DNA from: Diprion similis
Taxonomy: Eukaryota > Arthropoda > Insecta > Hymenoptera > Diprionidae
DNA: 64,000 nt
Direction: 5' to 3'
Assembly (NCBI RefSeq): GCF_021155765.1
Contig: NC_060113.1
Coordinates: 2,284,501 to 2,348,500 of the forward strand
The notes beneath the pieces were generated by a model. That model worked only from the letters and a program-made list of their open reading frames with translations, searched no databases and had not been told where the DNA came from. This document shows positions 12,528 to 64,000 of the stretch, piece by piece (position 1 is the first letter of the stretch; each line of letters opens with the position of its first letter). Both the position numbers and the translations under genes were made by a program.

Positions 12528-15500
12528 ATGCCGTCTACAAACGGCTGTCACAACTTCGTCTGGGTCCTTGTTATCCTGGGATCCCTTTTCCTCGAGGATG
12601 TAGCGCCGGTTCGCATAGGAACCAGCACCGTCAAGCGGAAGAAGGGTGAGTGGTGGTACCCCTGTATTCCCAATCTCAACTTCCATCCCGTTCCTCACGT
12701 CACAAAGTGTGTCTCCGTGTTGTTCTTGCCATTTACAAGAGAGAACAAACAAAAAAACTAACAAACAAACGGTGTGTTCGGCGAACCTTTCCTAACGTGC
12801 CTACCCATGCGTAACCTGATGATGCGAACGTGCATCGAACGCTTCTAATGCGAGCTGTTATAACGGGTCCAGGATGACGGAAGACTCTTACTAGAGTGTT
12901 GGTCAGGCTCGGCGTGAAATGCCACAGCTGCCAGAAACCTAGGCATGGAATGGCCTGCCTTCTAGCCTACCTTTCTGGTCAGTTGTAACCTGCTCACCTA
13001 CATGTCGTCTGCGTCGGTCATTGTCTCGTGCCATCGAGTCAAGGCATTCTGAAAACCAGTTTGCCAGATACGCGGACGGTTGTATTAACGGGTTTAGAGG
13101 GGCAGAAAGGTTGTTCAATACAGTTTTGCAACCTTGTGCATGAAGCGTCAACGAACCCATCTCATTGATGCCATGCCTACTCGGCGCCTGCGCTTTGAAT
13201 CAACGAATTCGAACGAAGTTCAGTGTCAGAACTCTGTGTATTGGCCAACGCCAATTCGCTTCGAGTCCAGTAACCAAACCATTACAGGTCAGAAGTAGCA
13301 GCTTTTTAATGTGTTTTTTCAACGATTTAAAACCAGTCTGTGATCGTACATAACTGATCGCTGTAAAACAAACTGGCATGAATGAACGATGAATCAGATT
13401 TCTTTTCATTTCTAACAATCATAATCACCGATCCAAAATTCCTCATCGATCATCGATTCACTTGCTTCATTTGCTGCAATCCACATCGCCATTATCATTC
13501 TACGTTACACTGCTAATTGACGTTCACCGTGTTTCGTGTTTCTTCTTACTTCCTTCAGTGAATGCGACGAGATTCTGTGTCACTTTTTCAAGGTTGCCTA
13601 GCACCAGCCGTTAGAAAAGCTGAAGGGCAAAAAGACTAAGAGAGGAGAAAAAAACTATTGGATAATTCAAAACCTACTACGTCGAGATCTCGAAGGATAA
13701 TTACCTAAGCAGCAGAATCGTGTTCACCGTTATATTGTGAAAGTTCGGATGATCGAACTGCGTTCAAAACTTCCAAAACTCCAATATTTTCATTTCGCTA
13801 TCATCTTCTAGATCTTCTTCTCCCCCTTATAACCCCCCCCCCCCCCACCCCCCACCCCCCACCCCCGCCCTCATCTCTCACTCACTCTATCCGTATCTAC
13901 GTCGCTTCATCTTCGTTAAAATATATCCGAGACGTTATCCACACCGTGGCTGCAACACGCGAGTAACGGTTTTGGGAGAAAGTCCTGATGATGGTGACTA
14001 TAAGTGGATTCTGCGTGCTCTTCTTTCGTTTTGGTTCGCTCGGCGTTGCTGCCTCAACGGTTTACAGTTTTGTCATAATTCTTTAGTTTTCATGACCGTT
14101 TTCACCTCCTTCTTTACTCCTTTCCTCTGGTATCGTCAACCTTGTCAAAATCCCGATTCTTTCCAACTGAGAAGGAAATCAATCTGCGTTCACTTTAACA
14201 GTTGACATTTAACCCGTAATCGGTTATCAAATTCAATCGAAGCTTCCTGTGGGGGTAAATAAATTGAAAAGATGAAGAAATTGAAGTCACTTTTTGCTCA
14301 GGAGGAACGGACATGCGATCCATTTTTGCAAACTATTTTCAGTTCCATGGATCGGAGAATGAAGTCAAGTCTGGTTCTTGTAATCAAACGTCAAGTCGGA
14401 CAATTGAAAGATGAATTGGAAAGCGAGCTGCCTGCACCTACGGCGCTTCTAAATGACTACATGCTACTTTAAACCCGCCTAATTACTTCCAATCTTCTAA
14501 TGCTCTCGTGCCCAGAGTAGCTCCGGACAAAGCCGCTGTTCCAGGTGGGCTCAACACCTTGTCTGTGGTTCGTTGGCACGATTTTATAATAGTCGATTGT
14601 GTGTGGGTTGGTACTCCTTTCATTCATCCATTCCCCGTGACTTCGCTGCGGTAGATCCACGGTAATAAGGTGGCAATGTTGAACATGATGTGCCCGCCAG
14701 ACTCTGAAAAATTGAGCAAATTAACTCCACGTTGTACTTATTTGTTATGGATAATTATACCGCTATTAGGATACCAGCGTAAAAGATTGGAGAAATTACG
14801 TTGTAAATGAATTTACAGAAAACAGTTATATTACTGTAATTATACAATAGTTTTGCAGACCGATTTCGTGCATTTCACAGCCGATTATTTAGTAATGTTT
14901 CCAAAAACTTTGTGCAACTGATTTTTAGTAATATGGCGAAAGTCAAACGCAATTTTAGATCCTTCATTGCTTCGACCTGGATACAGTGCCCCGTAATTAT
15001 TTACCCTATATACGTTGAAACAAGCGTCCATGAAGCCTGTATATCGATAAGAATTTACGTTTTTCAAAACAACACACGGCGAAACGATTCACTTTAACTG
15101 CTTTAACTCATCATCAATGGAATAGTGAACATAATGAAGAGGCTTCAACTAATGTGTAATGGCGTGATGTTTGTATTGAAACGAACACACGTATAATTGA
15201 AACGCATTGACCATCCAGCCCATCTTTATTCATCAGATTTTCTACCCGATGTAGGTACAGACTCGTATAATTAGAGGTGATATTTTATCGGATCAAATCG
15301 TCGACGCTATCGCTCTGCAATCGCACTCTATAAGTCACGAACTTGTTTCCTGCCATCTTGGTTCCATCATGCTGAGAGGTGTGAAAGGCTTTATTAACAT
15401 GTATTTTGGCTTTATTACTATATACAGGGTGACGTCTGTACCAATTACTTCCTGCAATCTTTAATGCACACCCACCCGTGACTCGAGGGAAATTAATCCA

Positions 15501-18500
15501 CCAGAGGATCTAAAACTGGGATTAGGATGAACGCAATTCTCCATCTGTCGAACGGTGATGAAAAGCAATGCAATAACCAGTAATCGAGAAATGTGGACAT
15601 TATTTTATTCCCTCCTGCGTTATACTGTTTTGCAAACGTTCAAAGCCCTCCGAGTTTAATTAGCGGCATGTAATGAGCCGTGGCAATTGAGGCTGGGAAC
15701 GCTTGTGATTCTTGGCTAAAGTTACGCTATATGCCAGCCAGGACATAGTAAGTACTTGCCTCATTTCCTGGCCTGAATGGGATATTGCCCGATGGTTGCA
15801 GCATTCGCATTCGCATTCACTGCTCGGATTATTGCTGTGTTTCTTTCTTTCTTTCTTTGGAACCTGCAAGAGGCGTCTGCATCCTGATGCCCGTCTGCCA
15901 TTCACGCCGTAACTCTTTTCACCTGACCTTGTCTCGCTGCCTCCACAATCCAATCAGTCTACACGCCGAGTACAGTTACCTTACCAGCGTTGGTTTCTGG
16001 GGAGGATAAACCAGGCTAGTCGTACCAAACAAGAGTGAAATGGCACGCCTTATTGCGTACATACGCGTTTTACACTCCGTCATTTGGCTTGACGTGGAGT
16101 GAAAAATTATCCGCCGTATCTCTCGTTGCGTGGGGTAATCGTGCCGATTTGAAACGGTCCATTGAGAGAGATCGAGTCGTTTCATTTTCGATTCCTCTAT
16201 GGTGTTGGTACTTTGGATTGCGATGCAATTCTAAACCTTTCAATATGGCGGAATGCAGTGTCTCTCATAACGTGACAGAAAGTTTTGGATCGATCGGCTT
16301 CGATCTAGCAATTTGTATTACAATGGAGTGAGAGAACGGGCCAAATCCAATGGGCAAAGGGTCACCGTTCTGGCTATGAATAATCTGGGCCAAATTGGAA
16401 CGAATCTTCGAGTAGTTGGATAATAACTGCAGATCGAGGATCGTAATTCATTGGGCTGAAGCGGAACGAGCTGCATTAGCACGATACTATCACATGCGAG
16501 ACATGACATGGCACTCACTTTCCAACCAGCTACACCGTCGTTTCTCATTACACGTCCGTTTCGCTGACCGAAGAAGAGCGGACCTACCTCAACTGGTCAA
16601 TGTTCGCTGTAATTGAAAGAGGGTCGACTCGTGTTATTCACTAGAGGAAATTATACGGAAGTGCCGCCATTTTTGGAAATGTCCTGCCTTGTCGTAAGTT
16701 AACATCGTCTGACTTTAAACATTAAGACGGCGAGTTCCATTGCTTACGTAGACTATTTTGCCATTGAAGAAATTGCCGAGTTTTTTATATGATTATACCG
16801 ATTGTAGAAACAAAATGGCGTGAGCATTAGGAAGTGGATGGGATGCGGAAAAGGATGACCAACCATCATGCCGTTAACGTATAGACTTTAGAATTTGTTT
16901 GGAAAGGAAATGTCGCGTTCGCACGCGTGCACCCAGTGCGGAAAGTAGGAGAAGCGAGTTTTCTCAGCCTTATGTAGTTAGAGATCGACTCCAATAACGT
17001 GAACAAGTTCCATTAGAAAACAGCGCTGATAATCCGACGAGATTGAGGTATCCGGTTTCCCGCAAATGCCTATACGTGTGCAACATTCTCGACTCTCGTT
17101 TCTGTGATGCTCCAATGCGTAAGACTCAGCTGCAGGATACATCAAAGGATGGGAAACGCGTGTCAGAATTTCTGGAATTCCTTCATAAATAGAAGCAGAG
17201 AAAAACGCGTGATTTCATGTTTTATTACTTGTACATGCACATATGGACGCGGAAATATTCGAAAACCATCGAAAAACAAAACCTACGAATCGAAAGCTGC
17301 CGTATGACAAATTATATTTTTTGCTCGAGTGTGAATTTGGCTGTCACGGTCATGCCGTAAAGTTTGGCAAGCGAAACGCCAATTTTCCGGTCCCAATTGT
17401 TACATTCTACTGCCTATTGTCGTTATTGTTATATCCATATTTGCGCGCTGCTCAACGGAGCTAAAATCATTTCAATGAAATTCGTTGAACCGCGATTCGA
17501 TGTTGTTTGATCTAATTTAGTACAATTAAACCAATGCCTGGTTATCTTTTTTATTTTTTATCACGCAATCCTGCAGAAATTTGAAATTCGATCTCAATTC
17601 TCTGACCCTGTGTGATATAATTAAATTTTTGCGTCGAATATCGAACGAATCTGATTTGAACCCATCTTTAAAAGCGTCGAATCCCGAATTATTCGGTGGC
17701 GAAACTTAAAGTTTCGAAACTTTGGTGTCTCGTCAAAGTTTCATTTCTTTACTTCAAGTTTCGACAGTAAAAAATTCCAAATTTCACCCACTTTCGGAAC
17801 TTTTCAAATTCGGAATTTCAACCCTGCTCCAGGTGCAGTATAATATTGCAAACGCGGATATTGCTGCAGCTATTCGGCGATATCGCTGATTCTGTTCCAG
17901 CTCGTGGTCGCGTGTCGTAAACGCGAACGAATTAACCGCGAATAATGTTTATAAGCAGTAAGGAAAAGAGGCTAGAAAGTGAACACGCCTACACCGCTTA
18001 CTATCCTGCAGGCTAAATAGACTAGATTTTATTACGTTTCTATCGAGATCAGAATAACTTTTTCTCCGACGTCGTTGTTTGTTTTTTTCTTTTTGTTTTT
18101 TATTGTTTTTTTTTTTTTTTTTTACACCGCGAATATTTTATTCTCATTCCATAATGATATTTTCCAATTAGTGACAATTCACACGATACCTTATAATTGA
18201 AAAATCAATTTTTATTTTTTTTATCCCAAAGAAAATTTAAAAATATTTTCATCCCACAAATTGAAAGAAAGAGAGAAAAACACTGATATAGATATTTTCC
18301 GAAAGCGAGGCAGGAAATAAATTGAGATCGAAGGAAGAGAGGTGGCGATAAAAAAAAAAAAAGTAAAAATCGGCACGTAATAAAAAAGAGTTTATCTGTC
18401 CGCGATACTGTAAAATTATTATAAATAAACGGCGGAGTGATGCAGCTTATACTTGGGTAAAATTTTCAAGACTTTCATCCGAATAATTATCACACTTGAG

Positions 18501-21500
18501 ATTTCTGTCGTTAAACATTCGGAGGATTATAGTCGGATTTCCCAGGTGCAAAATGTCGAACCTTTTATTACTGAAATCCAGCAACTGCAGATCGACCGTC
18601 CGACTGAATCCTGCGGAGATAATTAACGTCGTACTTTGGCAACCGTTAGTGCCTTCATTAAATAATTACCATCCGTGTCGCATATATAATGTTACAATCT
18701 CGTACATACATATGTTAACGGTCGTATCTCAGATTTCGGTGAAAGTTTTCCAAGTCGATTATAATGCATACTTACGCATAATGGCTTATCTCTCTTAAGG
18801 AATTGGCATCAATCAGTTTTTTTTTTTTTTATAATTAGAGTGTATTCATCAAGCCTAACAAAGTCTATATCAATATTTACAGTTAAAAATTGATAAAAAA
18901 AAATTCTTGAAAAAATCTTTTCTTTTTTCCTCGTCACGACTGTCATCGTATGATGAAAGAAGCAGCCTGTCAACGGTGAGATTGGCTGCCAATAAATGGC
19001 ACCATTACCTCTAATACCCTGCGTCAGTTTCTAGTACACACTATCGCCAAAGCATTTGCATAAATAAAAGACGGAACAAGCGGTTAACGCACGTTATATC
19101 AGTCAGCTAATTCGGGAGTCAATCATCTGATCGCGGAATTGATTATAAGTTATAAGTTTTTTATTTTTTTTTTTTTTTTGTACTCTTTCAACGGGTACAG
19201 TTATCGCTTCTAGGATGATCCGTGAGATAAATGGTGCGTGAATCGTGATACTGTGGCCGTTATGAGTTCTGCGTAGATACACCTATAGGTATATAACATG
19301 AAAAATGAAAGCCATCTCACGATTTGACGTGTTAATAATTACCAAAGAGAGACGAGATCTCAACGAGACCCTAGAAATGTCGTATTTACTTTACTTTCAA
19401 ACCAACAATCTTATCTCAAAGGTTGGATTGATTTTTAATTTATTAGACAAAATTTGCAATGGAATGTCGATTTCGCATTCGCTTCGTAGAAAGATGAAAT
19501 AAACAATTCTTGTGTGGATTGGAAATGTAAGTTTTCTTATCTTTGTGGCTGGGTGTGGATAGTCGATGATCAAGGTCAATAATAATATTATACCTGTATA
19601 TATATAAATTATCGGATACCGGTTTTCTCCAAATATTTGTCAATTCGAGAAAAAGTTTCTAATGTCGGTTTGGATACTTTTCAAGTACCCACGTGCATCG
19701 TATCGTCAATTCCAATCTGCATATATATATCTGACGTGAGGTCCGATTCTTGAATTATTCTTAAAATTTTCGTGTCACTAAAAACGAGCTCGAGAATCGT
19801 CATCTCGATTTCATTCCACGCTGCATCTATGGAAAAAGTCGATTTCACCAGTCACACGTCCCATACGCACACCGACTCGGTCTCTATTTCAATATCGCAC
19901 GTTTCTGCTCAGCTGCGACGGAAGATGGATTCTGTAAAATGCGTGAATTGAGGCGGAGATTAGAAAACGTCGTTTCTCTTGATCGGTAGCATTTTAAACG
20001 TACGCATTACATCCGGGCTTCTCGCTCCGCTTTATTCACCGTAAAAATGAACTACTTGAAATTTTTTTATTGCATTATATTACCGTTATTGCCCTCCGTA
20101 TAATCGCGGTGAAATTTTTACAATGGAATTTGTACTTTCATTAACTAAGATAAAAATTGTCCGATATTTTCTCGTACACAACTTTTTAATATCTACGCAC
20201 TTTTACCTAATTCGCGTTATTCTTGCCACGAGCAAAAATTCACACGAAATATCACAAATCTGAACTGTTAAAATACATATACGTAACACAATAAGAACAA
20301 AAATTTGTGGATACAATGTAAATTAACGGAAGTGTGGGGGAATAAAAAAAAAAGAGAGAGAGAGAAAAGTTTGAAACTAAATATCTCCTTGCTGTATTAA
20401 TTTTCAGGACAATAAAAAGGAAGAAAAGAACGCCCGCGAGATGATGTGTAGAAAAAAAGAAAAAAAAAAAAATTAAAAAACAATAATAATAATAATAAAA
20501 TAAACTTATCATTTGACATCGATGTTGCAGAGCGCTTCGGACATTCTCTCATCGTTTCTTTTTATCCTCTCGTACCTTTTTTTTTACAATATTCTCAACT
20601 CTCGGGCAAATTTTCTCCTCCTTACGAATGTGGGTTATAAACGAGCCTCAGGCGTGTTCCTCCATGAGTACAAAAGCGAGCGATAAATATTAATCGGATT
20701 TAGCATCTCGCTAAACTGATTTAATTCAATATCGCCCGCATATAGTTAAAAAGTCTCAATCAGGCCCGCCAAAAATCACGCCGTCTCGTGTCTTTTATTT
20801 TTATTGTCAAGTTTTTGCCTCCTTTTTTCTTGTGAACAAACAGAAAAACGTTCGGATTACGCCCTGGGATATAAGAAATCTAGGAATTTATTAATTTTTT
20901 TCTTTTTACACTTATCTCTCGAGCGAAAGACGTCTGCTTTACTTACTTTCCATCCGCATCTCCCATGTGTGATTCTCCAAGTGTGGGTGCCGGATATTTT
21001 CAAATTTGTATTCCAACCGTGTTTCTTGTACGAGTACCAGGCTTGCTATACGATGAACGGTAGCCGAAATTGTTGTCGATTAAAGTAAGTGACGAAACGC
21101 AACGCATATAAATTTCACTGCCAGGACTTATGGGTAACAACCTTACGAATTGAACTTAAATGTGTATAAAGCTCCGAGTCACGTACGACTGCGGTTAATC
21201 TTCTTGTTAACTCGACTTTAACAAGACGTTGTTTCCTCCATTTTTCTTAAAGAACGTAATCTTCTTACTTTACTCGCATGTCACACATGCGTATGCAAAT
21301 CCGATTTGAAATTAATGAGGGAAAAACGATTTTGTGAGATTATAATCTCAAGGGGTTATTCACCCGTGGATCAAACGACAAACGATTTCATTCTAACTTC
21401 AAAGTTGTTTCAAAATATTTTCAGATTCATTCGAAACGGTTTCAAAATTATTTCAAGATCTTTTAAATGATTTCGAAATCATTTCGTATTTCGATGCAAT

Positions 21501-24500
21501 ACAAACGGTTTCACACTCATTCCAATCAGTCCTCGTGCAATTTCTCAGCGATCGTAACCAAAAGTGATTTGCGATTTCAACGAGAAAATGGCCCCGGCTT
21601 CGTGAAATCTAATATCTTATTCAGACGCAGATCTAATTCCATATGCATGTAAATAAATTATAGAAAAAAATTCTTTTCGAAAATATCCTCGAAACGGTTG
21701 AGATTTTAAAAGACGAAATGAAGGTTAGAGAGGCGCTTCTGTTCTTCAACCTCGTTGAAATTCTTCTCTCAATTTTAGGCCAAGCTGTTATTCTGACGGA
21801 TACGCCCGCGTTCTTTGTTGGATCCACGTGTGATCGGCGTTCAGATAAACTGAATGATTACAAGAGCGCGTTGGCACGAGAAACTGAGAATCGCGTGGAC
21901 CTTTCACGTGGCCCCAATCGCAGTCGCGATCTTCTTCCTTGAAGTTTCAGAAGTAGATTTTCATTACCGATGATCGCAGAAATTCTTCTGAATAACAATT
22001 TTCTTTTCCATTTATTTATTTACATTTAATTACAGCGATTTCTTTCTACGGAATCTCTTTTATTTCCGCTCTCGTATACACAACTCCGAAGCATCGTGTT
22101 TTGCACTTGTCGCACATACTTGCAACGATATTGCGCTGCAGCTTAGAAAGTTGCAACACGCGCGGTGATGCACTCGAACGCATTAATAAACGAGCTTGAT
22201 TACAAACCGCGGAGAACTTTGACCGCGGACAAATAGAAAGAAAAAGAAAGCAAACAAGATGAAAGAAAGAAAAAAAAATATACTTTTCGATCAAACGCGT
22301 AACAGTATAGGAAAGAAAAAAAAAAAAAATTAAAACATAAATAAGGTGTAACGATGCCAATGGAATTTGAAAAAATGCGACTAAAAAGTAGCCGAATAAT
22401 CGTTTTATGAGACACATTATAGCAGCGAGAAATCGCAAGTTCCGTTGTATCGTTGAATAGGCACGTGGTGAAAACGAGTTTCGATCGGACCGGTAAATCG
22501 ATGATTATGGTCCAGCTATCGATTTCATTTGCATCCAATAACATAGCGGTTGCGATCGGGATTCTCGATCGCATGTGCGAGCATCGATGCTGATCGCGAT
22601 CTGTGACACAGATTTAGAGGACGTTGCTCACGGGGATGCGGAATAGAGATCGACTTGTCTATCTTCGTCTTTTTCTTCTTCGTAAAACTCGGTCGAGTGG
22701 TTGACGTTCGGGTAAAACGATGAGTTTTCTGCATTACGTACATTTACTCGCCGACTCTCACTGCTCGATCAAAAAGAGAGAGCAAGAAAAACAGGGTCTA
22801 GAAGAACAGACTCAAAGTCGTCTGTTTAAGGACGAATCTACTTAAGGACGATCCGGATCAAAATTTGGAAAAAGATAGAAAAAAGTGTTATTTGCGGCTA
22901 TTAATGACTCAGAAACAAAAATGATCCAAATGACGAAAGCAAGAATATCGATCTCAGAAAAAAGCTTATAACAAAAAACGTTCGAAACGATTGAAACTTA
23001 ATTACTTTCATACGATTTCAATTTTTATTTTGTTTCTTTTTTTTTTTTTTTTTATTCGGGAGATTATTTCGTTCATTTTAAAGATGTGCAGAAATCTGAT
23101 GGTGGAAATTCTGACAAAAACTGTTATGTTCAGAGTGGATGAAAATTATTGATCAACTCCTACTATTACTAATTTTTACAGAAATTGTAATATTTTGTAT
23201 TCTTTCGTAGAAAATTGTTAATTTACTTTGAAAATATGGTGATTTTCATGAAAATCTACAAGTTTTTATGCATAAATATTTACAATTTTTTCTATATCAA
23301 ATTTTACGAAATGTTACAATTTCCCTAAAAATTCGTTAAGAAATTGTAGAAATCATTTTCACCATGGAGTGCCTGCAATGCTTGCTGCTGCACGTGGTGG
23401 TGGATGAATTTATATCCATATACCGAGGTTCCCATCCTTCCATGAGTCACGATAATATTATACGGCGTAAATAAATTATCCGCTTCTCCCGGCGACTCTC
23501 TCTCACACGAAATCTACTTCACGCTCGTGTCTGACGTGCGTCCAGTTTCTCTGGATGCATCCGTGGGTCGTCATGCGGGGAGATTGACGTCCGACGTCTT
23601 ATCGAAAATCATCGGGATAATAATCACGGTTTCTGAGAGTAGTTTCTTTCTTTTTTTCTTTCATCTTTTCTTATTTTTTTTTACACTTTGCCGTCAATTT
23701 GAACCAATTTACATTCGCTTCTTCACGCACGCTCCGGCGGCTATCACGGCATCATGCTCAACAGCTTTCAGCGGTAAATGACTGCAATTCGCGCTGCCTT
23801 GTTTAATCGCGATGCAAATAGCCGGAGCCACACGTCTCTCTGTAATTTTCTGTATCCTATACATAAATGCCTTTACGTGACGGGTAAATACACGTTTCTG
23901 GAAACTCATAATTAAGGTATCCGGATAAATCATACGTTGTTAAATGATGCGAAGTGAACATTTTATATATATATATGTACATATATGGAAGTTTATGTAA
24001 ATATTTAACTCGCATATACATATAGAAAATTTATGCACATTAACCGTTGAAGAATATGAGAAATGAGAAATTAGATTTTACAATTCTCGCGAAGTTGGTA
24101 TTTCTAGTAAATATTTAATTTAAATTTGGTTTTCAAGATGAAAAGACTGAAATTATAACCAAAGATTTTTATTTTTAAACTACTAAGATATTCAAAAACT
24201 TGAACGTAAAAAATATAATAATTCCTTCATTTTTTTTCCTTTGATTAGAATTCAGAACAATTACAATTCGATGGGTATCTCGTACGATAATCGAAAATGA
24301 GAATTTAGGATTATTCGAAAGTTTCAAGATATAACACAGAGTAAAAATATCAATCATGGAGAGGTTCAACCGACCAGCAAACAGCGAATGTAATTAAACG
24401 ATGATTAGTTTCACGGTTAAATATAACTAATTATGGTCAATTCTACGTTAACATTAAACGCCGACTACACTTCAGGAAAGTGGCCAATGCCAAGAGCAGG

Positions 24501-27500
24501 TTCAGGTGAAATTGCGCAAGTATATTACCCAACTCGTGCCCCCTGCGTTATTATACAATGGCGAATAAATTTCGACGAAGAAGTCGAAGAATTCGACCGC
24601 GCATTTTCCTCTCCAAACGAAAAAAATCTCCACGGAATAAAGCGTCAAGACTATCTAACGGCACGTATTTCTTATCGACGTTTTACAAAACGATTCAACG
24701 GCAATGTCCTTCGGGAAATTTAATAATCGAACGTGTGAAGCGACAAGTTTTTTTTCTTTCAACATCCCTGAACGATCTACGTAAAATCGCGCCTTCAAGG
24801 ATTTATTTCACATTCAGGAATAAAAACTAACGCCTCCCACAACGCGAAGGCCTGTTTTGTTGGATAAATTTCATAAACGAAATTATTATACAGTCTACGT
24901 GGCAAATTATCCACGTGATTTTTATTAGATAATACATCAAAGCTGTGGATGAAAATATTTAGTGTTGAAGAATAAATGGGAAGACGAAGAGAAAGAGAGA
25001 GAGAGTGGCAATGAAAATAATAGCTAATCTCACTCACGTTATTACATCTATTAAGATTCTAAATTGTTACCTGCGCTCCTAGCGGCAAATGGAAATATAA
25101 TTAATCTGGGCATGTGGTAATTAAGCATCTAATGGTTGGAGCCTCTCGACGAGTTGCCAAGTTCCACACTGAAAGATCCACAATTGGACGTTCTTGCAGA
25201 GTGATAAATTATAACTACAGTCCATATTTAATAACTGAAAAAAACAAACAGCAATTACGCAAAATTATGATCGATGTAGCCTTAATGATCGAGAGAAGTA
25301 AATATCATAAAATTGCAGGAATTTAATTTTTTAATAATTGTAAAATGTATCGAAGAAAATATAAGGGGTGAAAATTTTATAATCCATTCATCGAATTTCA
25401 TTCACTAATTCTGCAATTATTTATTTGTTTTTTGTTGTTGTTTTTTTTTTTTGTCGCTTAAACGAAACTTCTTTTCCAACTTCAGGTACATCCAGCGTTA
25501 TAATTATTGTTACAAATAGCGCGTATCGCATTAACATGACAGTAGGATTTTGATTTGAAAAATAAATTTATAACCACATTTGTTTGACTTGTGGTGTTGA
25601 AGAAACGGTTTATAAATCACGTCTCGCCTGGAGGTTCGCCTGATTTTAAAAGAGCGCTTGTTTAGCCGGTCTATGTAATTAATGTTACGCTGCTGAGAGC
25701 TGGGATGGAGAAAGTAAGCCAGAAAGTTCCAAGGTTAAGGGGAAGGGACTTACTTCGATCACTGATTCAAAAATATACGGTTTAAAAAATATACTTGCCC
25801 ATCGGTTAAACATTATTTAAGATCATATTACACCGGCATGTACGGCGGTGTAACATATGCGTAATACAATATAATTAGAGAATGAAAAGAAGAAGAAGAA
25901 GAAGAAGAAAAAAACAAAACCACCGCAAATTATATACCAAGAAGCCTGCTTGAGCTGAGAGCGGATGAACGTTATTTTCTTTCTATTTCTATTTTGTAAT
26001 TTCATTCCATATTTCACCAGAGTCTTTAGTTCAATTGCGTTCACACGTGGGATTTTCAGACTGCAGGTAGACGCTTTACAAAAATGAAAAATTATTCATT
26101 CATGTTACAGTTGCTTATTTTCATTCTTAGTTTATCTCTTTCTCCGTTTTTGCACTTATATTTTCACCCATTTTCATGTATAATATCAAGTAGCGCGCGT
26201 CGAAAATTCTCCCCGGACATTGCGTTACGTTGGCGATAATAATTATTCTATTGCATCTAGAATAAGTGTGAAGGCGTGAAAAATAAGAAACCGTGGCCGT
26301 CGCTCTGAGTTTCAATTTACACCTTTGCGAAATTTTAACTTTATGCGACGCTCTCGAATATTGTTTTCCCAAAGCGCGTGCAATAATTCTGCACAATTTT
26401 TATGCATATGTGCAATAGTTTGCAATACACGCGCAGAAAATCGACAGTGATTATTGAAACGACGCGTTCAATTCAGAGGAAAGAAATCGATGAACCTAAC
26501 CAGCAACGCCGAGTTCTTTTTTCACTTTTGCTTATATTATGTTATATATATATATATAATTTTTATATATGTATAGCTGCGAGATCTTAATTAAGAGTCG
26601 TATAGGTACGCGATAATTGAAAGACGAGTTGAAAATTGAAATCATGGTTATAAAATATTATGCTAATTCACGCCACGACGAAAGCATCTATCTATAGTGA
26701 ATTTCTAATCTTAGTACCATCCGAGGTGTAATAATCTAATATAAATTAAATAAATAACGGAACAGGAATTTCAATCCACGATACTATGATTTTCTTTTTT
26801 TTTTTTTTTTTTATCCAGCTCGGCACTCGAGTTACTATAAATTCTATTTACACCCCGGGCAGTAATAATATTTTATTTCTCACTTCCTCATAAATTAATC
26901 TGAGACGGTGTGAAAAAGAATATAGTTTTATTGTATAAATGTAACCGCGCCGTATATTTTCTACGAATAAAATTCAGCCACGGCTACACGGACGACATGA
27001 TAAACGTTGATTTATTATTTCAGTAAATTAAAACTCAGTGTTTCACTGTTCCTAGTCTCTATATAAAAAAATAAAAATAACAGTCGACTGATTCAAAATC
27101 CCACGCAGTGAAACTGCACTCGAATATTATCCCACATCTTGAATTTTATACCGCACTATTTCGTCCCGGAGAATGGAAGAAAGTAAAAAACCGACGAATC
27201 TTTGTAATTAACGTTTTATTGTGTGTGTGTGTGTGTGTGTGTGCGTCTATCTATGTATACATATATGTATAATATTGCATCCGGGATAAATAAAACATGT
27301 AATCCTCGAGTTTTTGAAGTGAATCAGCGTGTCGAGTAGAAAGAAAAATGTGATTTCTAAACTGACCAACACGCCCAGATGCGGTCACGGGTGTGGGCAA
27401 CATTAAATCGACGTTGAGAATTTTATTGGCTTGTTAAAATGGCAAAGTCATGGCCAGCCACCGGCTCTGACCCAGTTTTGCCTGACTTTTGAGCAATAAT

Positions 27501-30265
27501 TTACGCCGCCGACACACGCGAACCAGTAAATATAAATGGGCGGGTGGAAATTAATTAAATGGGACTTTGTCTCCGATGCGATTCACCTTTCGTTTATCCC
27601 GAATTTAAGAGGGTTAATCTTTCGTTCTACGTTCAGCCTCCATCTTCACCCCCCCCCATCGAAGACTAAGAACTATTTTTTGAGCCTGGATGGAAACCGA
27701 TTTGCTTTCTCTACTCAATTATCATATAAACAGCCGAATCGAAACGCTGGAATTCCATTCCCTAGACCCGGAGGCCATTCGTCATTAGTCCAATTTACGG
27801 GAAACGATCTCTTAGCAACGAAATTTCCGCGCAGATTTATTTGCGCCAATAGACAAGCCAACGTTACTCGACAAAGATTGCTAAGTGACGACGATGGCAT
27901 TAAACGACACACCGCAGGTACTGTTGTAGGTACGCCTACTTTGCTCGGTATTGCACATTCATATATATATATATCCGTGGGAAAGCCGGCGGCCTCACGT
28001 AGTTTTGCCTATCGCGATCATGGATTTGCCAACCGAGTTGATCCGACACAAGCTTTCAATTTACAAATCCCACAACGGTCCTTGAGGTATCATTACATAT
28101 ATGGATATGTCACGAAATTATTCGGCAAATGTGGTATTTAAATTTAACGCAGAGGAAAATCGTTTCCACTTGAATTTTATGCTCTTGTATTAGTACCCAT
28201 TTTTTATTCGATTGCTGCACTTTGAGTTTACTCAGCTGTGAATGGACGATTTCAACCTGGATGAGGACCTTAGAGCGTGCTGAAATATAGGGTAACGACT
28301 AGCTGCACAATTTCCGCTACTCACTCAGACGATCTAATGATCCGTGACGCTTGGATATCGCCGATCGTCCACAGGGATGTAGTTATCACGCGGCGAAATT
28401 GCTTCACAACGGATTCATTCTACCGGATCATAACACCCGGAAGATCCTGCGATGATCCGGGGGTAGAAGACGACGACAAAGTTTCTTGGCACAGCGGCGT
28501 AAATCACTTTTGCGCTTTTAAACCTGGTCCAGAAACCACGGAACAACGTTCCAACTACCTGTTTCCGCTTCGATCGTAACGAGAAAAAACGGTCAAGTGA
28601 TCAGCTGGACGTTGGTTTGTTGCCGTTAAGAGGAGATCGGGAAATCTCTTTGACGTTTTCCAAAATCGGATCTGCGTAATATTGTTGATCTATAAAAAAC
28701 ACTTCGTCTATGGAGTTTTTTTGCAACGGGAATGCTGATTCCATTGAGAATACCAAAGTGGGAAATTTACAATTGCATCGCTGCATTTGACGACGATTGA
28801 CTAATAAAAGACAGAAACCGCGTCTCCTGGGCATAACGAAACGAAATAGTTTTGCAGACGTACAAGATATATCAAAACGTGAAACGTATAGTAATATGGC
28901 TTGTACGAAATTATGTCTCGAGGGCGAATTGAGTCATGGACTGAAAATAATTGTGACGGCTTTTTGTCCCAAAGAAGTACGACAACGCTCGCTTATGGCG
29001 TGACCTGCACAGGATATAACTCACGCTCTTGCAACATGTTGCATTCCGGCTTCGATCGAGTCTCGCTAGTGGATTTATAAATATTGCCAACTTTTAGATG
29101 GATTAAAGCGTTGAAATCAACGCAGGCATACCGTTTCGTTTTTTTTTTTTTTTTTTTTTTTTACAAAAACGATTTCATTATCGTTATCGTTTCTTAAAAC
29201 GAATGTTAGAGATCACCGTAAGAGAAATAAGAATAAAATTGGAACAAGGAAAGGACCGGAAGTGTGCTAGAAGGCGGACAACTTCAGTGAATGAACAAGC
29301 GGAAACCGCGTAGTCAAAAGCGTTGGACTGTTGTTGCGGCATTTAGAGTACCTGCTGAAATTCGAAATTATGTAACTTGGCATTAAATTGATATTGCACG
29401 ATGTCCTGCTGGGCGAAATGGGTTTATACACCTATCAAAAGCACTTTACGTTACGGAATGCGGATTGAACAAGGTGACGAGCACGACTTCCGGTGGTTTA
29501 GTTTTGCCACAGTGTGATTAGCCACCGTGTCGACGCAACGACGTCGTGCTTAGTGGATTTTCTTATTCCTCTTCTTCTTATAATAGTAACAACGAAATTC
29601 TCGTTTTATCCTGTCAAGGACTCGAGTAGCCGATTCTCTTGGCGTCCAATGGCCAGACTAGCCGATGATACGTCTCTTGATAAATTTTTTTTTAGTTCAA
29701 ATTCGCAGGAATGTTTATCGACTCGGCTTATGACCAGCGTGATGATGACTCGGCAAGATGTGACAAGGCCAAGGCTAACGCTCTCGTTAACTTGCGTATA
29801 GCCAACACTTTCTATCTGCAATGGAGCGGACAACCGTGGTGGCATCGCTCTCCTGAGGTTTTCCACTTCAACATTCAAGCTACCCACCTACTTTATTTAC
29901 ATAGACGACGTTTTTACGCGAAGAAATAATATATGGCATTCCGCTCTTTCCAATACTCCATACGTTTCTTATTTGACAACAGATCGTTGCTTTCTAAACA
30001 ATCCTGATGATACACAGTAAAAATTCCTAAAGTATTTGTCACGTTTTTTTCTTTACTCATTCCTCCAAAGATTATTGGGATGATAAAAAAGAAATATAAA
30101 ACTGATTACCACGGTCAATAGACCGTTACTTGGAATCTACTCTCCCTTGATTTAGGACCTGATTTTTTTTAGTAATACTCTTTCACTATTTAGTCGAAAT
30201 TACTGAAGGTGAAAGAAAATTGTCGAGAGAAGAAAACGTTCGTCACCATTTTTCCGAACTCTTAT

Positions 30266-30315
<50 letters not shown>

Positions 30316-41182: not shown

Positions 41183-41213
<31 letters not shown>

Positions 41214-48990: not shown

Positions 48991-50202
48991 GATATTTTGG
49001 AAGCCTTCAAAGCTCTTCAATCACTGCATTTTTGGAGCCTAAAGCATCTTACTGATCGTGGATAATTTTTTTCTTACTTCATTCACTATTTCACTGACAC
49101 CTTCTGTATCACCTAATCATCACGATGGAGATCGTCATGCGTGTTGATGATCTGACAGATCTTTCTGCCAGATACAGTTTCGTTTTAAACGCAAGCCTAC
49201 TGTTCCTACCTATCAAATCGCAGTACTTCTATGAAGTTTTGGTCATTCTATAGAAAAAATTGAGTCAGTCGTATCCACGATACTCTGGTCTTATTGTTGG
49301 CTGCTTACCTTCAACACAAGCCTGAGTGTTCTTCTACCTCGATTATTCTTAACTGCAATGAAAATGTGTTAACAGCTATTTTAATTTGACGGACGTGTTG
49401 TGGCGACGCGTTTTGATGATACGACTAATATTTTGGCGGATGAAATATCACACAACGAATTGTTGATGATATCGTCGCTGCTGTTTTACCTGTTCTGTTA
49501 TTTTTCCATGTATATACTAGTCATGAAGATATATTTTTAGTAATCCAATTTGTTTTAAATGCCTGAACTTAAATTTCGCGAGATATAATGTTTTGTACAA
49601 AAATCTTGAACAATTTATTAATCTATAAAATCATTTTGTAAGTACTTATAGTTGAAAATTTGTAATTTACAATGTAAAAATGTCACAATAAGGGTCACTG
49701 CAGATCTTGTGACATTGCACCGACTATTTATGTTTATCACATTCCCGAGGCATAATTTTACCGAACGCAGATTAAGTTAGATTCTATATAATCATAATTT
49801 TGTCTAACTTTAAGAAATACAATTTTTCCTCGTGGATAAATGCACCGATAATTAGTGAAAATCACATGATCGTTTAATCTATGACCATGCGAGATTACTT
49901 CATCAAAATTGAATTATTCAATTATGCAAATAAAGTACTGTTATTAGAGAGTTATTATGATTTTCAAGTGACAACCTACTTCTTGTTACAAGGCGTGCCC
50001 GATACCGTTTATAATCATATAAAATAATATCAGGCCTATATTAGTTCCAAAGCATGCTGTGCCTTCTTCTTCGTTCTTTATTTTTTCAATTGCCTTTGTG
50101 TTCCGATGACACGTCAAAAATATTTAAATTTCTCGACAATAATAATTTCCCGTCGATGACAACCCGCCTCATTCTGTACGCATTAGAACCACATCGAATT
50201 CC
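48991..50202. other. Spacer before gene 3, no gene recognised
   Basis: No coding sequence found. A segment at about 49396-49510 resembles 55121-55230 in the next intergenic region, including GTTGATGATATCGTCGCT in both, which points to duplication of this spacer. Confidence 0.5.
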
Positions 50203-50377: not shown

Positions 50378-53300
50378 ATGATTTCAAGCAACGTAAATCG
50401 GTTTGCCGTTGTATTGGCATCCCTTCTCATCCTGATCAGCTTTGCAGATGCCGATAACAGTGGTCATCAAAATAATAAAGGTGAGTAGCAAAACGAGATC
50501 GGAATAGCAGCATGCTGTTTGTATCAACACCTTCGGATTTTTATGAAAGATTTTAAAACAAAGATGTGAAAAAACCTGTGAATAGATAAGTTTAACCCTG
50601 AGTCATTGCTCGGTATCAGCGATCGGAATTAAAATTTACCTTTAGAAATTGATTGCTTAAGACAGTTTTGGACGATTCACTGGGTATCGATTTCCATTTG
50701 ATCCTCACAAGTTTTCCCTAAGTTCTAGCGATGTACTCTATTTTTAATCTACATCTATGGTCGTTGCAATTCAGGAAAATATGTCATATCGTCACCCCAC
50801 GAATGCCGGCGCCCGTGTATCGAAAATGAGCAGCCTAAGATCTGCCATTATCACTTCCATATCGAGTCCTTCATTACCATGGGATCGTAAGTATTACAAA
50901 CAGTTCTAGATTTTGGAATTGGATTTTTTTTCTAATCGACTACACCGCAGTTTCACGAATTATTTATTTATCCACCAACAGAGCATGTGTAAACTGTACA
51001 CCCACTATTACCAATCAGCTGAACCCTACTTGCCAATGCGTAACCGCAGATGGTATTGAGCGAGCCGTACTAACTGTGAACAGAATGATTCCTGGACCCA
51101 GCATCCAGGTCTGCAAAGGGGATCATGTCGTCATTGATGTTACAAACGCAATGGACGCTAAAGCAACGAGTATTCACTGGCACGGGATTTATCAGTACGG
51201 TAGCCAGTACTACGACGGTGTACCTTTTGTAACTCAATGCCCAATTGCGGATGGGAACTCGTTTAGGTATGCCAATAGATATTCTGACTGTTTAGAAATA
51301 TTGAAGTAACCAAGAAAGAGTAAATCAAATGCGTAATCGATAACGAGATGTAGAAACACGATAAGGGGGTTGAATTTTCAATATCGTCACTCTTGTTTCA
51401 AGATATCAATGGCATGCTGAAAACGAAGGCACGCAATTCTGGCACTCGCATCACGGGTCTCAAAGAATAGATGGCCTTTACGGAAGCATAGTTATTCGTA
51501 CACCAAAACCTTTGCATCGCAATCTGTACGATTACGACAGACCGGAAGATGTGATAGTGTTAAGTGATTGGTTCCATGCAAGTGGCTCCGAATTTTGGCC
51601 AGGAAGATACCGTTACAACCCCGGTCAAGGCGCGGTTTCGGTACTTATACAGGGATTAGGACAATACACGGTAGTAAAAGGCTTAACTTTTTTCTTTTTA
51701 GTTTGACTAATTATAGTCTCATCTTAATTCTTCACATTACTTTAGAATCCAACCAACGGCAGTACAACCACTACACCACTGGCAGTCGTTAAAGTCAAAC
51801 CAGGAAAAAGATATAGGATCAGATTTATCAATGCTTGCACTACGGTTTGTCCATCCGAGTTCAGCATCGAAGGGCATGATTTCGAGTTAATCGCTGCAGA
51901 CGGAGCGGACATTGTACCTGCAACCGTAAACAGCATCCTCACTACTGCAGGTACGAAAAACAATCAATGAGAAATACTTTGTCACTATTTTCGTAAATGC
52001 TGGTCAGTTATTTGTTATACTTGATTATCATTTTTGTTCTACTGTTGCACACTTTAATAATGGGCTTGGAAACACCCAGGAGCCTAGTGTAGAGTTACTA
52101 CAGTAAACAAGTATCCGAGAAACTTTGAACCTTGACCAATTTCTATGGATTTAAAAGCTTATTGATTACACTTTACCATTTACTTCTTTAACACACGAGT
52201 CTTGCTAAAAATTTCTGTTTTGTGAATTCAAAATTTTTGTCTCAATTCCTATCCATTAAAATAAACTCTTCCACAGGACTGTACAAAATTTAAAAAAAAA
52301 AAAATTTAATTGTGTTATACAAATGTCGTTTGATTGTCAACGGCAAAGGTAACTTCTACTTGTTATAGTGATTTTTGGGGTTAAGGCAGTTAGTACTAAT
52401 TCGTCTCACGTTTTTAATTATTGAAAAAGTACTCGGCAATAATTTTTCTCAAAAAAAACCTTGATTTCAAGTTTGAAAACGGATGGTATGAGATTTTAAA
52501 TCACAGTCGTGATTCAGAGTATTTTTTTCTCCATATTTATCACATTTATTTGGTAATTTTATTTTTGATATCCCCCCTAAAATTTATCTTGTATCCGCGC
52601 CTGTTAAGTACTAATCTAATAGTAGTGTAAAAAAAAATATTGCGTTGTAGGTGAGAGGTACGATCTCGTGATTAAAACTCACGACAGCGTTGAAAGTTCA
52701 TGGTGGATTCGTGCACGAGCGATAGGGGACTGCACAAACACGTCTGTTCAGCAATTCGGAATTTTGCAATACGAAGGAGCCCCGCAATATCCGGTTACTC
52801 CGAAACCCGGATACAACGAAGGTTTCTATGGAGCAAGGTTCAAGGATCTTCTCGGTCGTCGGAAGCACGAAAAACAACCAAAATCCGTTGTCGGAGGAAT
52901 GGTAAGGACCTCGTTGATACCGTCAGTAACAGTTTACATTCCATGGCAATGCCTAGCCTAGGATGTAAGTGATGTTTAACGTAGAGAATTCTTTTCGTTC
53001 TAGGTTGCAATCGCTTTGAATAACAGTAAAATACCTGAAACTGACAGTGACTTCGACAGTTGGGAAGTGAAAAATGCCCTTCCAATCACCGAAGACATAC
53101 GCGGAGAACCAGACATCCAAATCATGGTACCGTTTAGCCTTCAGAATCTCGATGAAACATATGCCTGGGCGCCAAGAACTTATCAACGTTTTGCAAGTAA
53201 ATCATCATCATCATTTCATTCATATTTCTACATAATTAAGTATACATTTTTTATTGCTAATACTTCATCCATAGATTTTATATATTTTAAATGAAAATCT

Positions 53301-54281
53301 AAAAGCCTCAATGAATGTCCTCACCGTAACGATCTTTCCTCTTTCCTAGTCACGCCAGAACGTGTTACGATTGCTGCAGGCATCGGTACTATCTCACACG
53401 TTGCTCCGACATCGCCGCTGTTATCGCAAATAGAAGATGTTCGACCAGGAACATTCTGCAATCAAAGCAGTGTTCGTGTTACAAAGAGCAGAATCAACAG
53501 GTGCACGCACGTGGTGAACGTTAAATTGGGTGACCTCGTTGAGATTGTCCCCATCGACCTAACACGTATGTCGTCAAATTTTATCCTTGTCTCACGTTGC
53601 CAGGATTACCTTCAAAGCATTTTACCAATTACCAACAATTTATTATTATTATTATTATTATTTCAGCACGTGGAGATCTATTCCATCCTTTTCACCTCCA
53701 TGGATACCAATATTACGTCCTCGCTATGGGGGCGAATCCCGATCCGGTCAAATATCCGATATGGAATGCATCAGTTTTTCATCTTTTCGACAAACAAGGT
53801 GCAATCCAAAGAAATTTTGTCAATCCGCCATTGAAAGATACCACTACAGTAACCGCTCGCGGTTACGCGGTTCTGCGATTTCGTGCGTTTAATCCTGGTG
53901 AGTTTCGTTAATACATCATCAACGTCATATAACGCGCGTACATGCGATATTCAAAAAGATCTATTTTCACAGAAAATGTTTTCTCTCGAAATTGTTATTT
54001 TTTTTATTTATTTTTTTTTTTTCAAGTATAAAGTTTTTGATTTTCAAACTAAAATCTCATTTTTTACATGTAGTGAAGGGAGGTCAATGCGTGAAATGGC
54101 TTGTTAAAAAATATGAATTTTCTTTTCAGGTTACTGGCTAATGCACTGTCATTTCGATTACCACATGATGAATGGCATGCAGATGATAATGCACGTCGGT
54201 GAAAAGACAGATCTTCCACCAGTTCCTCCAGACTTTCCTAAATGCAAAAATTACAAACCCCCCATAGTTCCCAGGGATTAA
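50378..54281 (+). CDS. Laccase-like multicopper oxidase, gene 3 of the array
   Basis: Predicted secreted laccase of unknown substrate. Exons: 50378-50480, 50775-50886, 50982-51266, 51403-51670, 51746-51950, 52651-52901, 53004-53196, 53350-53565, 53667-53897, 54130-54281; 671 residues. Residues 1-25, ending FADAD, form a clear signal peptide. The cysteine-rich region (ECRRPC to CQC) is present. Copper ligands are complete: H137 and H139, H181 and H183, HPFHLH with H551, H554 and H556, and HCH at 627-629 with H633 and axial M638. Compared with laccase 2 it lacks both cysteines of exon 7 and two of four in exon 8. Exon 6 is 57 bases longer than in gene 4 and encodes a lysine/arginine-rich insertion (DLLGRRKHEKQPK). 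Introns 5 and 9 are longer than in laccase 2. It is closest to gene 4: promoter, signal peptide, introns and 3' flank align. No disabling change was found. Confidence 0.9.
53640..53660 (+). repeat. TTA microsatellite replacing the polypyrimidine tract of gene 3 intron 8
   Basis: About seven TTA units sit immediately before TTTCAG at the 3' splice site of exon 9, where introns normally carry a pyrimidine-rich tract. Confidence 0.9.
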
Positions 54282-56628: not shown

Positions 56629-56636
56629 TATATAAG
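56629..56636 (+). promoter_or_regulatory. TATA box of the fourth laccase
   Basis: TATATAAG, followed by CGCG, lies 135 bases before the leader shared with gene 3. Transcription would start near 56660, leaving a 5' UTR of roughly 110 bases. Confidence 0.55.
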
Positions 56637-56770
56637 CGCGCGATTTCCGCATTTGCAGTAGTGAATTTACAACGGACAGCCGATCACTCCCGAATCTCTC
56701 TGCATGTTCAATATAATACACTCAGGGAAAACCATAAGCAATCGGTTTGTCTAACGGAAACGACTACGCC

Positions 56771-59700
56771 ATGACTTCAAATATCGTAAATTGGTTTGCG
56801 GTTTTACTGACGTCCCTTCTCATCCTGGCCAGCTTTGCAGATGCTCATCACGTTGGGTGTGGAAAGGATAAAGGTGAGTAGCATCATTTAAAAAACTCAA
56901 GATGCATGCACATGCCATAATCATTCTTTGTCTCCTTTTATATTGGAAGTTACAAATATATATATATATAAACAAATTCGAAATACAACTTTTCATTTTA
57001 TGTGAATTTTATAGAAGGTACAAAAATTATTCTCTACAAATTTGGAAGCACAAAGTTCTATCAGCACCTTAGTATTCTTATAAAATAACTTAACACAAGA
57101 TCACTGAAATCTTGCGAAAGGTTTTGATGAGGTTAACACTGAGTTCGAAATGTCTGTTCAGTTGAGACTTATTGGAAGCAGTATGTAAAATTGACGTATT
57201 GCTCAGTCTCAATGATCAGAATCGGAATGCCTACTCAAAAATTATTAGTCACTCAAAACAGTTTTGGAAGATTCGTTAATTATTCACTTTCATTCTACCG
57301 TCAATATTTTTTGCAAATTCTCAAGATATGCACTTTTCTACATCTTCCTCTGATCGTTGCAATCAAGGAAAAGATGTCATTCTATCAACGCCTCAAGAAT
57401 GTGCCCGCCAGTGTGTGGCAGGTAAGAAACCTAAGATATGCTACTACCAATTCTACATGGAGTCCTACGTAACCATGGGAGAGTAAGTATAAATCAAACT
57501 TTATTTGCGAAAATGACTTAAATTGGATTCAGAGTTTCACAAATTATTCATTCGCCAACAGTGCCTGTTTGTACTGTACGCCCAACATTACCAATCAGCT
57601 GAACTCTACCTGCCAATGCGTAACCGCAGATGGTGTTGAGCGAGCCATACTGACTGTGAACAGAATGATTCCTGGACCCAGCATCCAGGTCTGCAAGGGA
57701 GACTCCGTCGTCGTTGATGTTATGAACGGAATGGACGGGAAAGGAACGACCATTCACTGGCATGGGATCTATCAGAACGGCAGCCAGTACTACGACGGAG
57801 TACCCTTTGTAACCCAATGCCCCATTGCGCAAGGGAACTCATTTAGGTACGATGATACATGTAACTATCTAAAAAAATGTTGAGATAACCGAGAAATAGA
57901 TGCAAACTCAATTGATCACAAGACCGAGAAATTTAATGAATGAGTTGATTTTCCAACATCGTTTCTCTCATTTTAAGATATCAATGGATCGCTGGTAACG
58001 AAGGCACGCATTTCTGGCACTCGCATTACGGAACTCAAAGAGCGGACGGTATTTTCGGGAGCATAATTGTGCGAGCACCAAACAATCCTAATCGCAATCA
58101 TTACACTCAAGACAGACCGATGCATAGGATGGTGATTCATGACTGGTACCATACAAGTGCCTCCGAAAATTGGCCAGGAACTCGAGCCAGCTCTGGTCAA
58201 GACCCGGATGCGTTACTCATACATGGATTAGGACAATTCACAGTAAGAAAAAGTCTTGATTGACACTTTTTCTAAACCACTGATACCACTCTCATCTTGA
58301 TCCCTCATTCATTTAGGATCCAACCACCGGTAATACAACTACTACACCACTAGCAGTCTATGAGGTGCAACCAGGAGAAAGATATAGGTTCAGATGTATC
58401 TCTGCCGCCTTTACGCACTGTCCAATTGAACTTAGTATCCAAGGGCATAGACTAAATTTAATCGCTACTGATGGAATGGATATTAAGCCTACCTTAGTCG
58501 ACATCATCATATTATTTGGAGGTGAGAAAAACAATCAACGACAAATATCTTTGTCACTATTTGAGCCTGATAACGTTCGATCAGTTTCGAATTGGTCGTT
58601 CCCATAAACAACAATTTGACAAGTCCATTGGTAACAATATTGGGTGGGAAGAATTCACATAATTAACTTGTACTTGTACTTACCTGACTAAGTACTGATC
58701 CAGTGGTTGTGTAAATAGAAAGATGTTGCGTTCTAGGTGAGAGGTATGATATGGTGCCAATGCCTGTCGACAAACATTCTTCAGGGCCATTTTGGATTCG
58801 AACACGTGTTATGGAGCCATGCGTAAACTCCACCGTTCAGCAATTCGGAATTCTTCGATACAAGGGAAACCCAAAGTATCCCAGTACTCCGCAGCCCGCA
58901 CACAACGAAAGTTTCGTTACGACAGGAGTAGTAAGGATCTCGATGATAGCGATGACATTTGACATCACACGATGAAACCGTTGTTGAACGCAAGGAATGC
59001 TGAATATGCACATCTTTTGATTTTAGGTTGCGAATCCCCTGACTTCCAGCTGTTCCGGTAAAAATGACCGTGAATTGTGCGTCAGCGAGATGCGAAGTGC
59101 CGTTCCAAGCGATAAACAAATAAGTGGAGAACCAGACCTCAAACTCATAGTAGGAGTCGGCTTCTGGCTTTGGTCACCCGCAGAACTCTATGAGCTCAAT
59201 TTTTATCGGCGATTTTTAAGTAAGTTGTAGACATTTCTTTCAAATTTTTATTTTACACACAAATATCCGTCGGAAGATAATCTTTTTACGACATGGGCAT
59301 TGAAAAGTCTACTTTTTGTGGCAGTTTTCGTTCCGTAAAGTGACGCTCTATACGGCAGCGAACAAAGTTGCGGAATAAAGTCTTTATTCCGCAGTTTTGA
59401 TGCGCAGTTCGAAGCGCGCATCCCAAACTGCCTTATAAAGTAGCTTCGTCGAAGAGATCGCGACATAACCTCACTCTTCGTTTTGCTTTTCAATGCCCAT
59501 ACCGTAAAAAATATTGTACGTGGCATGCCCGTAAACCGTTTTTTGGCTCGGATAATTTCAGTACTCGCTTCCGGCTCGCCTTCAGCTCGTCCTGAAATAT
59601 TTATCCTTCTCAAAAAAAAGGCGGTTTACGGGCATGCCACATAAATAGCTATTTTTTCGTAAATACTTCGTTGAAAGTTTCAGTATATTTTATATTGTTA

Positions 59701-60678
59701 CTTGAAAAAGCCTAGATGAATGTTCTTCTAATCATGACGTTCTGTCTCTCTCCATCAGTGGTGGCACTAGGTGCTTCGCTTGCCGCAACCCTCGGTAACA
59801 TCTCATACATTCCTCCACCATCGCCTCTGGTGTCGCAAATGGAAGATGTTCCATCGAAAACATTTTGCAATCAGACGAATCCTCCAGTTCCAGATGGAGG
59901 GTTGAAAAGCTGCACGCACATGATAAAAGTTCGACGACATTCCATTGTTGAAATGATACTATACGACCAATCAGGTACGCAGTAAAATTTTATCAGTCTT
60001 GTCCCACGATGCCAGGATCACCTTTAAAGTATCTTAGCAATTACCTGGGATTCCATTTTAGCCAATGGAACTCTGAACCATCCAATGCATCTTCATGGAA
60101 ACCATTTTCACGTCGTCGGTATGGGGACGAATCCGGGAAAGTATCCGGTCCTCACCGATCAAGTCATACGTTTGTACGACAAGCAGGGTTTGATTCCCAG
60201 AAATTTTAAAAACTCACCTTCGAAAGATACCTGTGTAGTCATGAGACAGGGTTATACGGTTCTCCGATTTCGCGCTAATAATCCAGGTAAGTTTGGTTAC
60301 GATACATCATCAATTCCTTCACTGTGTGCAGCAACTCATATGATGCATGCGGGAAAAAGTTGTGCCGCATGTACTTACGGCAGTAAAAGAAATCTAATCA
60401 CGCGATAGTAATTTTTATTTAAAAAAAAAACTGATTTTCAAATGGAAATCTCATTTTAGTCACACAGTGAAGGAGTCGATGTGTGAAATGTGTTGTTACA
60501 ACTGATTTTATTTTTTTATTTTTCAGGCTTCTGGCAATTGCACTGTCATTTTGAATTCCACCAGCTCGCTGGCATGACGTTGGTCTTGCACGTTGGTGAA
60601 AAAAGAGATCTTCCTCCAGTTCCTGCCAACTTTCCTACATGCAGCAATTACGAACCTCCCATCAAACCCGTGTATTAA
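56771..60678 (+). CDS. Laccase-like multicopper oxidase, gene 4 of the array
   Basis: Predicted secreted laccase of unknown substrate. Exons: 56771-56873, 57368-57482, 57562-57846, 57978-58242, 58317-58521, 58737-58930, 59027-59219, 59759-59974, 60062-60286, 60527-60678; 650 residues. Residues 1-25, ending FADAH, are a signal peptide nearly identical to that of gene 3. The cysteine-rich region (ECARQC to CQC) is present. Copper ligands are complete: H138 and H140, H182 and H184, HPMHLH with H532, H535 and H537, and HCH at 606-608 with H612 and axial M617. It keeps the two exon 7 cysteines that gene 3 lost but has only two in exon 8. The acceptor of exon 2 ends CAATCAAG, where gene 3 has CAATTCAG, so its polypyrimidine tract is weak. 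Intron 8 contains a mobile hairpin element. All exons join in frame without a stop, so it is probably functional. Confidence 0.88.
59283..59653. mobile_element. Composite hairpin element, copy 2, inside gene 4 intron 8
   Basis: The same two-unit hairpin as at 55366-55737, in the same orientation, with roughly 15-20 differences over 370 bases by eye. It lies between exon 8's donor side at 59220 and the acceptor at 59758, about 100 bases from the acceptor, and leaves both splice sites intact. Gene 3's corresponding intron lacks it, so it arrived after genes 3 and 4 separated. Confidence 0.8.
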
Positions 60679-63533: not shown

Positions 63534-64000
63534 ATGATATCACCGAAGAGAAAAAATTCTGCAAAACGCTTAAATTACGTCCAGCGATACTACTTCTTCA
63601 CCCACACATTATTGATATTCGGAATGATCTTCGTCGATCTTTCAGATGCCCATTCTGCTCGACTATGTGATGGTAAGATGGATTTTTTATCAGAATATGC
63701 TATATGAAAACATGTTATTTTCTCAAGACATCTGACCAAGTGAAAGTGTTCTATGATTGTGAGTGCTGATGAAAGAAAGTCACACCAGCCACCAGCATTT
63801 TTGATGATGAAATTATTCACAGTCTCATTTTCGTGCAGTCTGTTGCATATCACAGTACAGTTGTGGCATTGTAATTTTAATTGACAAACTTCTAGATGAA
63901 GGACCGATGGAAATGAAAAACTCTCAATATTTGTCGACACCACAGGAATGCGCACGTCAATGCACAGACGATGAATTCCCAAGAACCTGCTACTATCATT
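63534..64000 (+). CDS. Laccase-like multicopper oxidase, gene 5, 5' part only (cut by window end)
   Basis: Two exons: 63534-63672 and 63896 to beyond 64000. Exon 1 starts at the ATG in ACCATGATATCACCG and encodes a basic leader followed by a hydrophobic core (HTLLIFGMIFVDLSDAH), consistent with a signal peptide or anchor with an unusually long N-terminal part. The donor is GTAAGA in phase 1, as in every other gene of the array. Exon 2 reads STPQECARQC then PRTCYYH, the start of the insect laccase cysteine-rich region, closest by eye to gene 4's exon 2. Copper ligands lie beyond the window, so whether the gene is intact cannot be judged. Confidence 0.8.

Follow-up and report, generated by a model that had tools for sequence, protein, structure and literature searches.

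Gene content and organization of the array

The window analyzed here, a stretch of 64,000 nucleotides (C9:2284501-2348500) from a genome of 269 Mb in 60 contigs, holds the greater number of the genes of a laccase array that extends over C9:2297028-2356455. The array consists of six intact genes (A, B, D, E, G and H) arranged head to tail. A, B, D and E lie entirely inside the window, all on the plus strand and with frames open from ATG to stop. The features are listed below in window positions, except for gene H, for which contig positions are given.

12528..39017, plus strand: gene A, which we take to be insect laccase 2 (MCO2); gene model, 10 exons, 752 aa
43312..46643, plus strand: gene B, laccase paralog; gene model, 10 exons, 669 aa, Pfam Cu-oxidase_3, Cu-oxidase and Cu-oxidase_2
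48420..49163, plus strand: laccase relic retaining pieces of exons 8-10 and carrying in-frame stops; tblastn
50378..54281, plus strand: gene D, laccase paralog; gene model, 10 exons, 671 aa, three Cu-oxidase domains
56771..60678, plus strand: gene E, laccase paralog, sister of D; gene model, 10 exons, 650 aa
61967..62218, plus strand: possible relic, exon 8-like and exon 9-like fragments in order; weak tblastn matches
63534..64000, plus strand: gene G, exon 1 and the beginning of exon 2 in the window; gene model, 678 aa
C9:2353199-2356455: gene H, sixth laccase; gene model beyond the window

Each of the six genes has ten exons, and the intron phases 1,2,2,0,1,0,1,1,1 recur at matching places in all of them, exactly as the initial annotation had claimed for its four complete genes. 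That annotation had described four complete laccase genes and one further paralog on one strand, which is borne out by an array that proves larger. The further paralog, G, had been called truncated; it is intact and merely cut by the window edge, with exon 1 at 63534-63672, exon 2 running from 63896 off the window end, and the complete gene reaching C9:2351261 (L009 34-3261). All introns of A, B, D and E start with GT and end with AG, and GC donors occur in one intron of G and one of H. Retroposition is ruled out, as introns are present. Exon 1 of E (56771-56873) was located by homology to D, the two exon 1 regions sharing 79% identity. Exon 2 measures 112-160 bases in B, D, E, G and H versus 376 in A. 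The encoded proteins are 650-752 residues long, and the intergenic spacers measure 1.9-4.3 kb.

Intron 1 of A (12646-35509) spans 22.9 kb; its counterparts in B, D, E, G and H measure 110-494 bases. Nested genes were sought in this intron and its flanks, and six long open reading frames from there gave no Pfam match at 0.01. Searches at a cut-off of E 0.01, with exons 2-10 from the four genes complete in the window (A, B, D, E) as queries, detected no extra laccase exon in the 31.5 kb downstream of H (to C9:2388000) and none in the 10 kb that precede the window. Downstream of H there is an open frame of 138 codons (L009 9552-9965), a 102-residue part of which had no Pfam match. Rfam at gathering thresholds returned no match within the window. 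At the contig ends, TTAGG repeats were seen at five of nine sampled ends, on four of six contigs; the other four ends had an 11-base repeat, N, or nothing of the kind. TTAGG is given for 19 orders in excerpts of PMC8977481, so that the repeat does not point to a single insect order. The sex-determination family PF12278 had no match in this genome, nor any in the controls.

Copper ligands, domains and a putative substrate position

Six of six array genes encode all eleven copper ligands (ten His and the type-1 Cys) as well as the axial Met, among them the four complete genes whose ligands the initial annotation had described as intact. The Pfam domains PF07732, PF00394 and PF07731 were found in B and D, the two proteins scanned, and A, E, G and H align with these over their full length, three Cu-oxidase domains included. 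A hydrophobic leader, judged by eye, is encoded by each exon 1 in all six genes, suggesting that the array proteins are probably secreted laccases.

In fungal laccases, the Asp of the IDGH motif binds substrate. The column that phmmer aligned to this Asp, which may be the substrate-binding position in the array proteins as well, is occupied by Gln in A and E; the residue there is Glu in the other four (B, D, G, H). Since E carries Gln as laccase 2 does, the Gln/Glu difference fails to separate all of the paralogs from A. As in fungal laccases, the region encoded by exon 7 may also contribute to the substrate pocket.

Laccase 2 is the cuticle-tanning phenol oxidase and is usually treated as a single essential cuticle gene. 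Like insect laccase 2, gene A has a long first intron and all ligands. Two of six published Tribolium laccase2 primers matched A best and in frame, at 17/20 and 16/20 positions, scoring above each of 200 shuffles, and the remaining four did no better against A than their shuffles. Alternative 3' exon sets (A and B exons) are described for Tribolium lac2 in excerpts of PMC12716784, and one of the two matching primers belongs to the B exon set and falls in exon 9 of gene A. The other five array proteins differ from laccase 2 in being 44-53% identical to A, in their shorter exon 2, and in carrying Glu in four of five cases where A has Gln. Among solved structures the best match is laccase BP76 (PDB 8r7i; E 1.2e-165 for A and 3.2e-145 for G), the match including the N-terminal Cys-rich region.

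The array within the multicopper-oxidase family

A search with the first Cu-oxidase domain yielded 24 first-look candidates, all of which were scored and grouped into 15 multicopper-oxidase (MCO) loci, one of them a fragment. Six of these are the array genes; three genes and one fragment fall in C2:18.37-18.40 Mb, and the remaining loci stand singly at C2:11.56, C7:0.23, C7:5.63, C9:2.07 and C9:5.85 Mb. Full gene models were made for the six array genes, and the C9:5.85 Mb locus was seen in part. The group on C2 (C2:18369282-18398291, L018-L021) forms a second MCO cluster, on another contig, whose three genes include a very similar pair and in which two fragments were seen. The locus at C9:2064341-2070198 (L014, L015), about 227 kb upstream of A, is MCO-like with several copper ligands missing in its stitched pieces, and in this resembles the described multicopper oxidase-related protein (MCORP) family (PMC4203857). 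In these stitched pieces, unlike in the array genes, HWH has lost at least one His, and the type-1 Cys is missing together with its adjacent His.

Two trees were built; sequences of this genome from outside the array entered them as assemblies of tblastn pieces, and neither tree includes two fragments from C2. In the first (14 sequences, all from this genome, rooted on the very long branch of C9:5.85 Mb), the array forms one group with SH-aLRT 94.5 and bootstrap 75. In the second (14 rows, with BP76 added and C9:5.85 Mb left out), it again forms one group against eight others, with bootstrap 76 and SH-aLRT 84; BP76 falls outside the array group, at a weakly supported position. The trees thus lend moderate, not decisive, support to the array genes forming a single group. 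Within the array, the second tree makes the pairing of D with E certain (100/100), A with H (95/95) and A+H with G (92/91) fairly supported, and B with D+E weak (72/72).

Intron positions support the array grouping independently of the trees. As judged from the spacing of tblastn pieces, the full set of nine introns is absent from all seven other MCO loci considered (C9:5.85 Mb excluded): the four C2 genes lack positions 5 and 9, both C7 genes lack 2 and 3 (one of them also 9), and C9:2.07 Mb lacks 3. The proposal that the array arose by tandem duplication of an intron-containing gene therefore stands, on nine phases common to six of six genes, one tree group of moderate support, and homologous introns and flanks in D and E. 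A placement of the paralogs in separate old clades, which had been named as evidence against it, did not occur in these trees of sequences from this genome and BP76. Laccase 2 relatives were also sought in viral_contigs and genome_contigs with exons 3-4 of A, and none was confirmed.

Age, constraint and loss of copies

Among the 15 pairs of array genes, seven have synonymous differences beyond distance calculation and seven more reach a dS of 1.75-3.12, which is saturated or nearly so. With 14 of 15 pairs at or near synonymous saturation, most of the duplications look old. The one well measurable pair is D/E (dS 0.56, dN 0.34). Introns of D and E are 54-77% identical, versus 44-49% for shuffled partners, intron 5 (54%) standing hardly above the shuffles, and their 3' flanks are 76% identical. 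Judged by sequence divergence, D/E is the only fairly young pair, and the wording "growing array" used in the initial annotation fits this pair alone.

Copies have been lost as well as gained, as indicated by the relic between B and D, in which pieces of exons 8, 9 and 10 follow in order with stop codons (E 1.5e-5 over 48420-49163; E 6e-6 for the exon-8 piece). The fragments between E and G near 61967-62218 (E 0.014 for the exon-9 piece and 1.3 for the exon-8 piece) are a possible second laccase relic. The initial annotation lists neither.

A 380-bp interspersed repeat occurs at 55357-55737 and at 59274-59653, the latter copy inside intron 7 of E; the copies are 94% identical and contain an internal inverted repeat. 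Genome-wide, 685 first-look candidates were obtained, and the 40 of these that were scored were all 95-100% identical, consistent with an abundant short element. Because the repeat copies are more alike than the D/E introns, the element was probably inserted after the D/E duplication.

It is close to an even chance, falling a little short of it, that the array dates far back in some large clade of insects and was trimmed in other lineages. Such an origin would be compatible with the explanation preferred below and competes only with calling the array lineage-specific. It would fit the synonymous saturation, full or nearly so, of every pair except D/E, and also the placing of laccase genes among the families contracted at the Aculeata stem in excerpts of PMC12492102; D/E at least is younger. 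By the criteria of PMC4414376, as given in excerpts, Nasonia has 11 MCO genes, Apis 5 and bumblebees 7. The difference between Nasonia and Apis likewise speaks for an old array, and the initial annotation's expectation of a single laccase 2 with a few paralogs besides suits the bees better than Nasonia.

Over the whole coding sequence, dN/dS between D and E is 0.60 (bootstrap 95% 0.49-0.74), and it varies strongly along the gene: 0.20 (0.09-0.38) in exon 3, 0.67 in exons 4-6, 1.12 (0.74-1.75) in exons 7-8 and 0.42 in exons 9-10. The HWH copper motif thus sits in an exon conserved between D and E, and others are fast. In Tajima's test, uncorrected for multiple tests, two of the three outgroups show D and E evolving faster than A and the third does not; none of them makes B, G or H significantly faster than A. 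From these comparisons the array genes appear to remain under constraint, and the fast divergence of D and E in exons 7-8 may reflect either adaptation or relaxed constraint, the interval for these exons including 1.

We regard it as unlikely that the array as a whole is slowly decaying, its redundant paralogs drifting under relaxed constraint with no new function. A clear relic lies inside the array, and dN/dS in exons 7-8 of D/E is indistinguishable from 1, as drift would predict. Against it, all five paralogs keep their frames, splice sites and copper ligands despite the saturation of nearly all pairs, and exon 3 of D/E is plainly conserved.

Separate genes or alternative exon sets

The downstream genes could instead serve laccase 2 chiefly by supplying its first exons with alternative 3' exon sets, in the manner of the exon sets of Tribolium lac2, and the identical phases in all six genes would keep any splice from laccase 2 to a paralog in frame. 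We consider this very improbable, since each paralog retains its own leader-bearing exon 1 and exons 2-6, 5' exons that would be expected to decay if unused, and is set apart by a spacer of its own; a second exon set was searched for in the interior of gene A and not found. Duplicated haplotypes mimicking an array in the assembly can be dismissed, since pairwise identity among the array proteins is just 39-55%, a divergence that rules out haplotype duplication, and the window contains no N.

Discussion

We find it probable that the locus holds six intact, probably secreted laccases that arose by repeated tandem duplication of an intron-bearing laccase 2, with the loss of at least one copy, and that the paralogs are used outside cuticle tanning. 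An ancestral laccase 2, with its introns already in place, would have been duplicated in tandem repeatedly, and unequal crossing-over may have both created and removed copies. Laccase 2 itself (gene A) would keep its cuticle-tanning job, and the paralogs may act as oxidases of other diphenols in secretions of exocrine or reproductive origin, such as those of venom, accessory, silk or defence glands or saliva. Their substrate preference could have shifted through the region of exons 7-8 and the substrate-acid position.

A glandular use of the paralogs is suggested by analogy with laccases of venom and stink glands. In excerpts of PMC8402507, laccase-2 and -3 of Sirex nitobei are reported as venom-gland-specific; 14 laccase transcripts are given for Pimpla turionellae venom in excerpts of PMC6950128, and venom laccases of Hymenoptera including Nasonia appear in those of PMC7930282 and PMC7828074. 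These laccases of Sirex nitobei, Pimpla and Nasonia are laccases of secretions. Tribolium Laccase2 produces para-benzoquinones in stink glands according to excerpts of PMC12716784.

Going further, the array might be a standing genomic source, in its insect group, of glandular laccases for venom, ovipositor, silk or defence secretions, in which old copies were kept for catalysis and freed at the substrate pocket, with positive selection on D/E in exons 7-8; we put this forward tentatively and think it rather unlikely. We found no account of such an array in this insect in the open-access literature searched, and the word laccase is absent from the main text of the Neodiprion gene-family paper PMC10542623.

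Growth of the array is a clear and ordinary kind of gene-family expansion, a fresh example of a well-known event, and should the paralogs prove unexpressed, the finding would amount to ordinary gene-family turnover. If the array is conserved and expressed, it could explain the origin of insect gland and venom laccases, and it offers five defined genes for testing how a tanning enzyme turns to other phenols.
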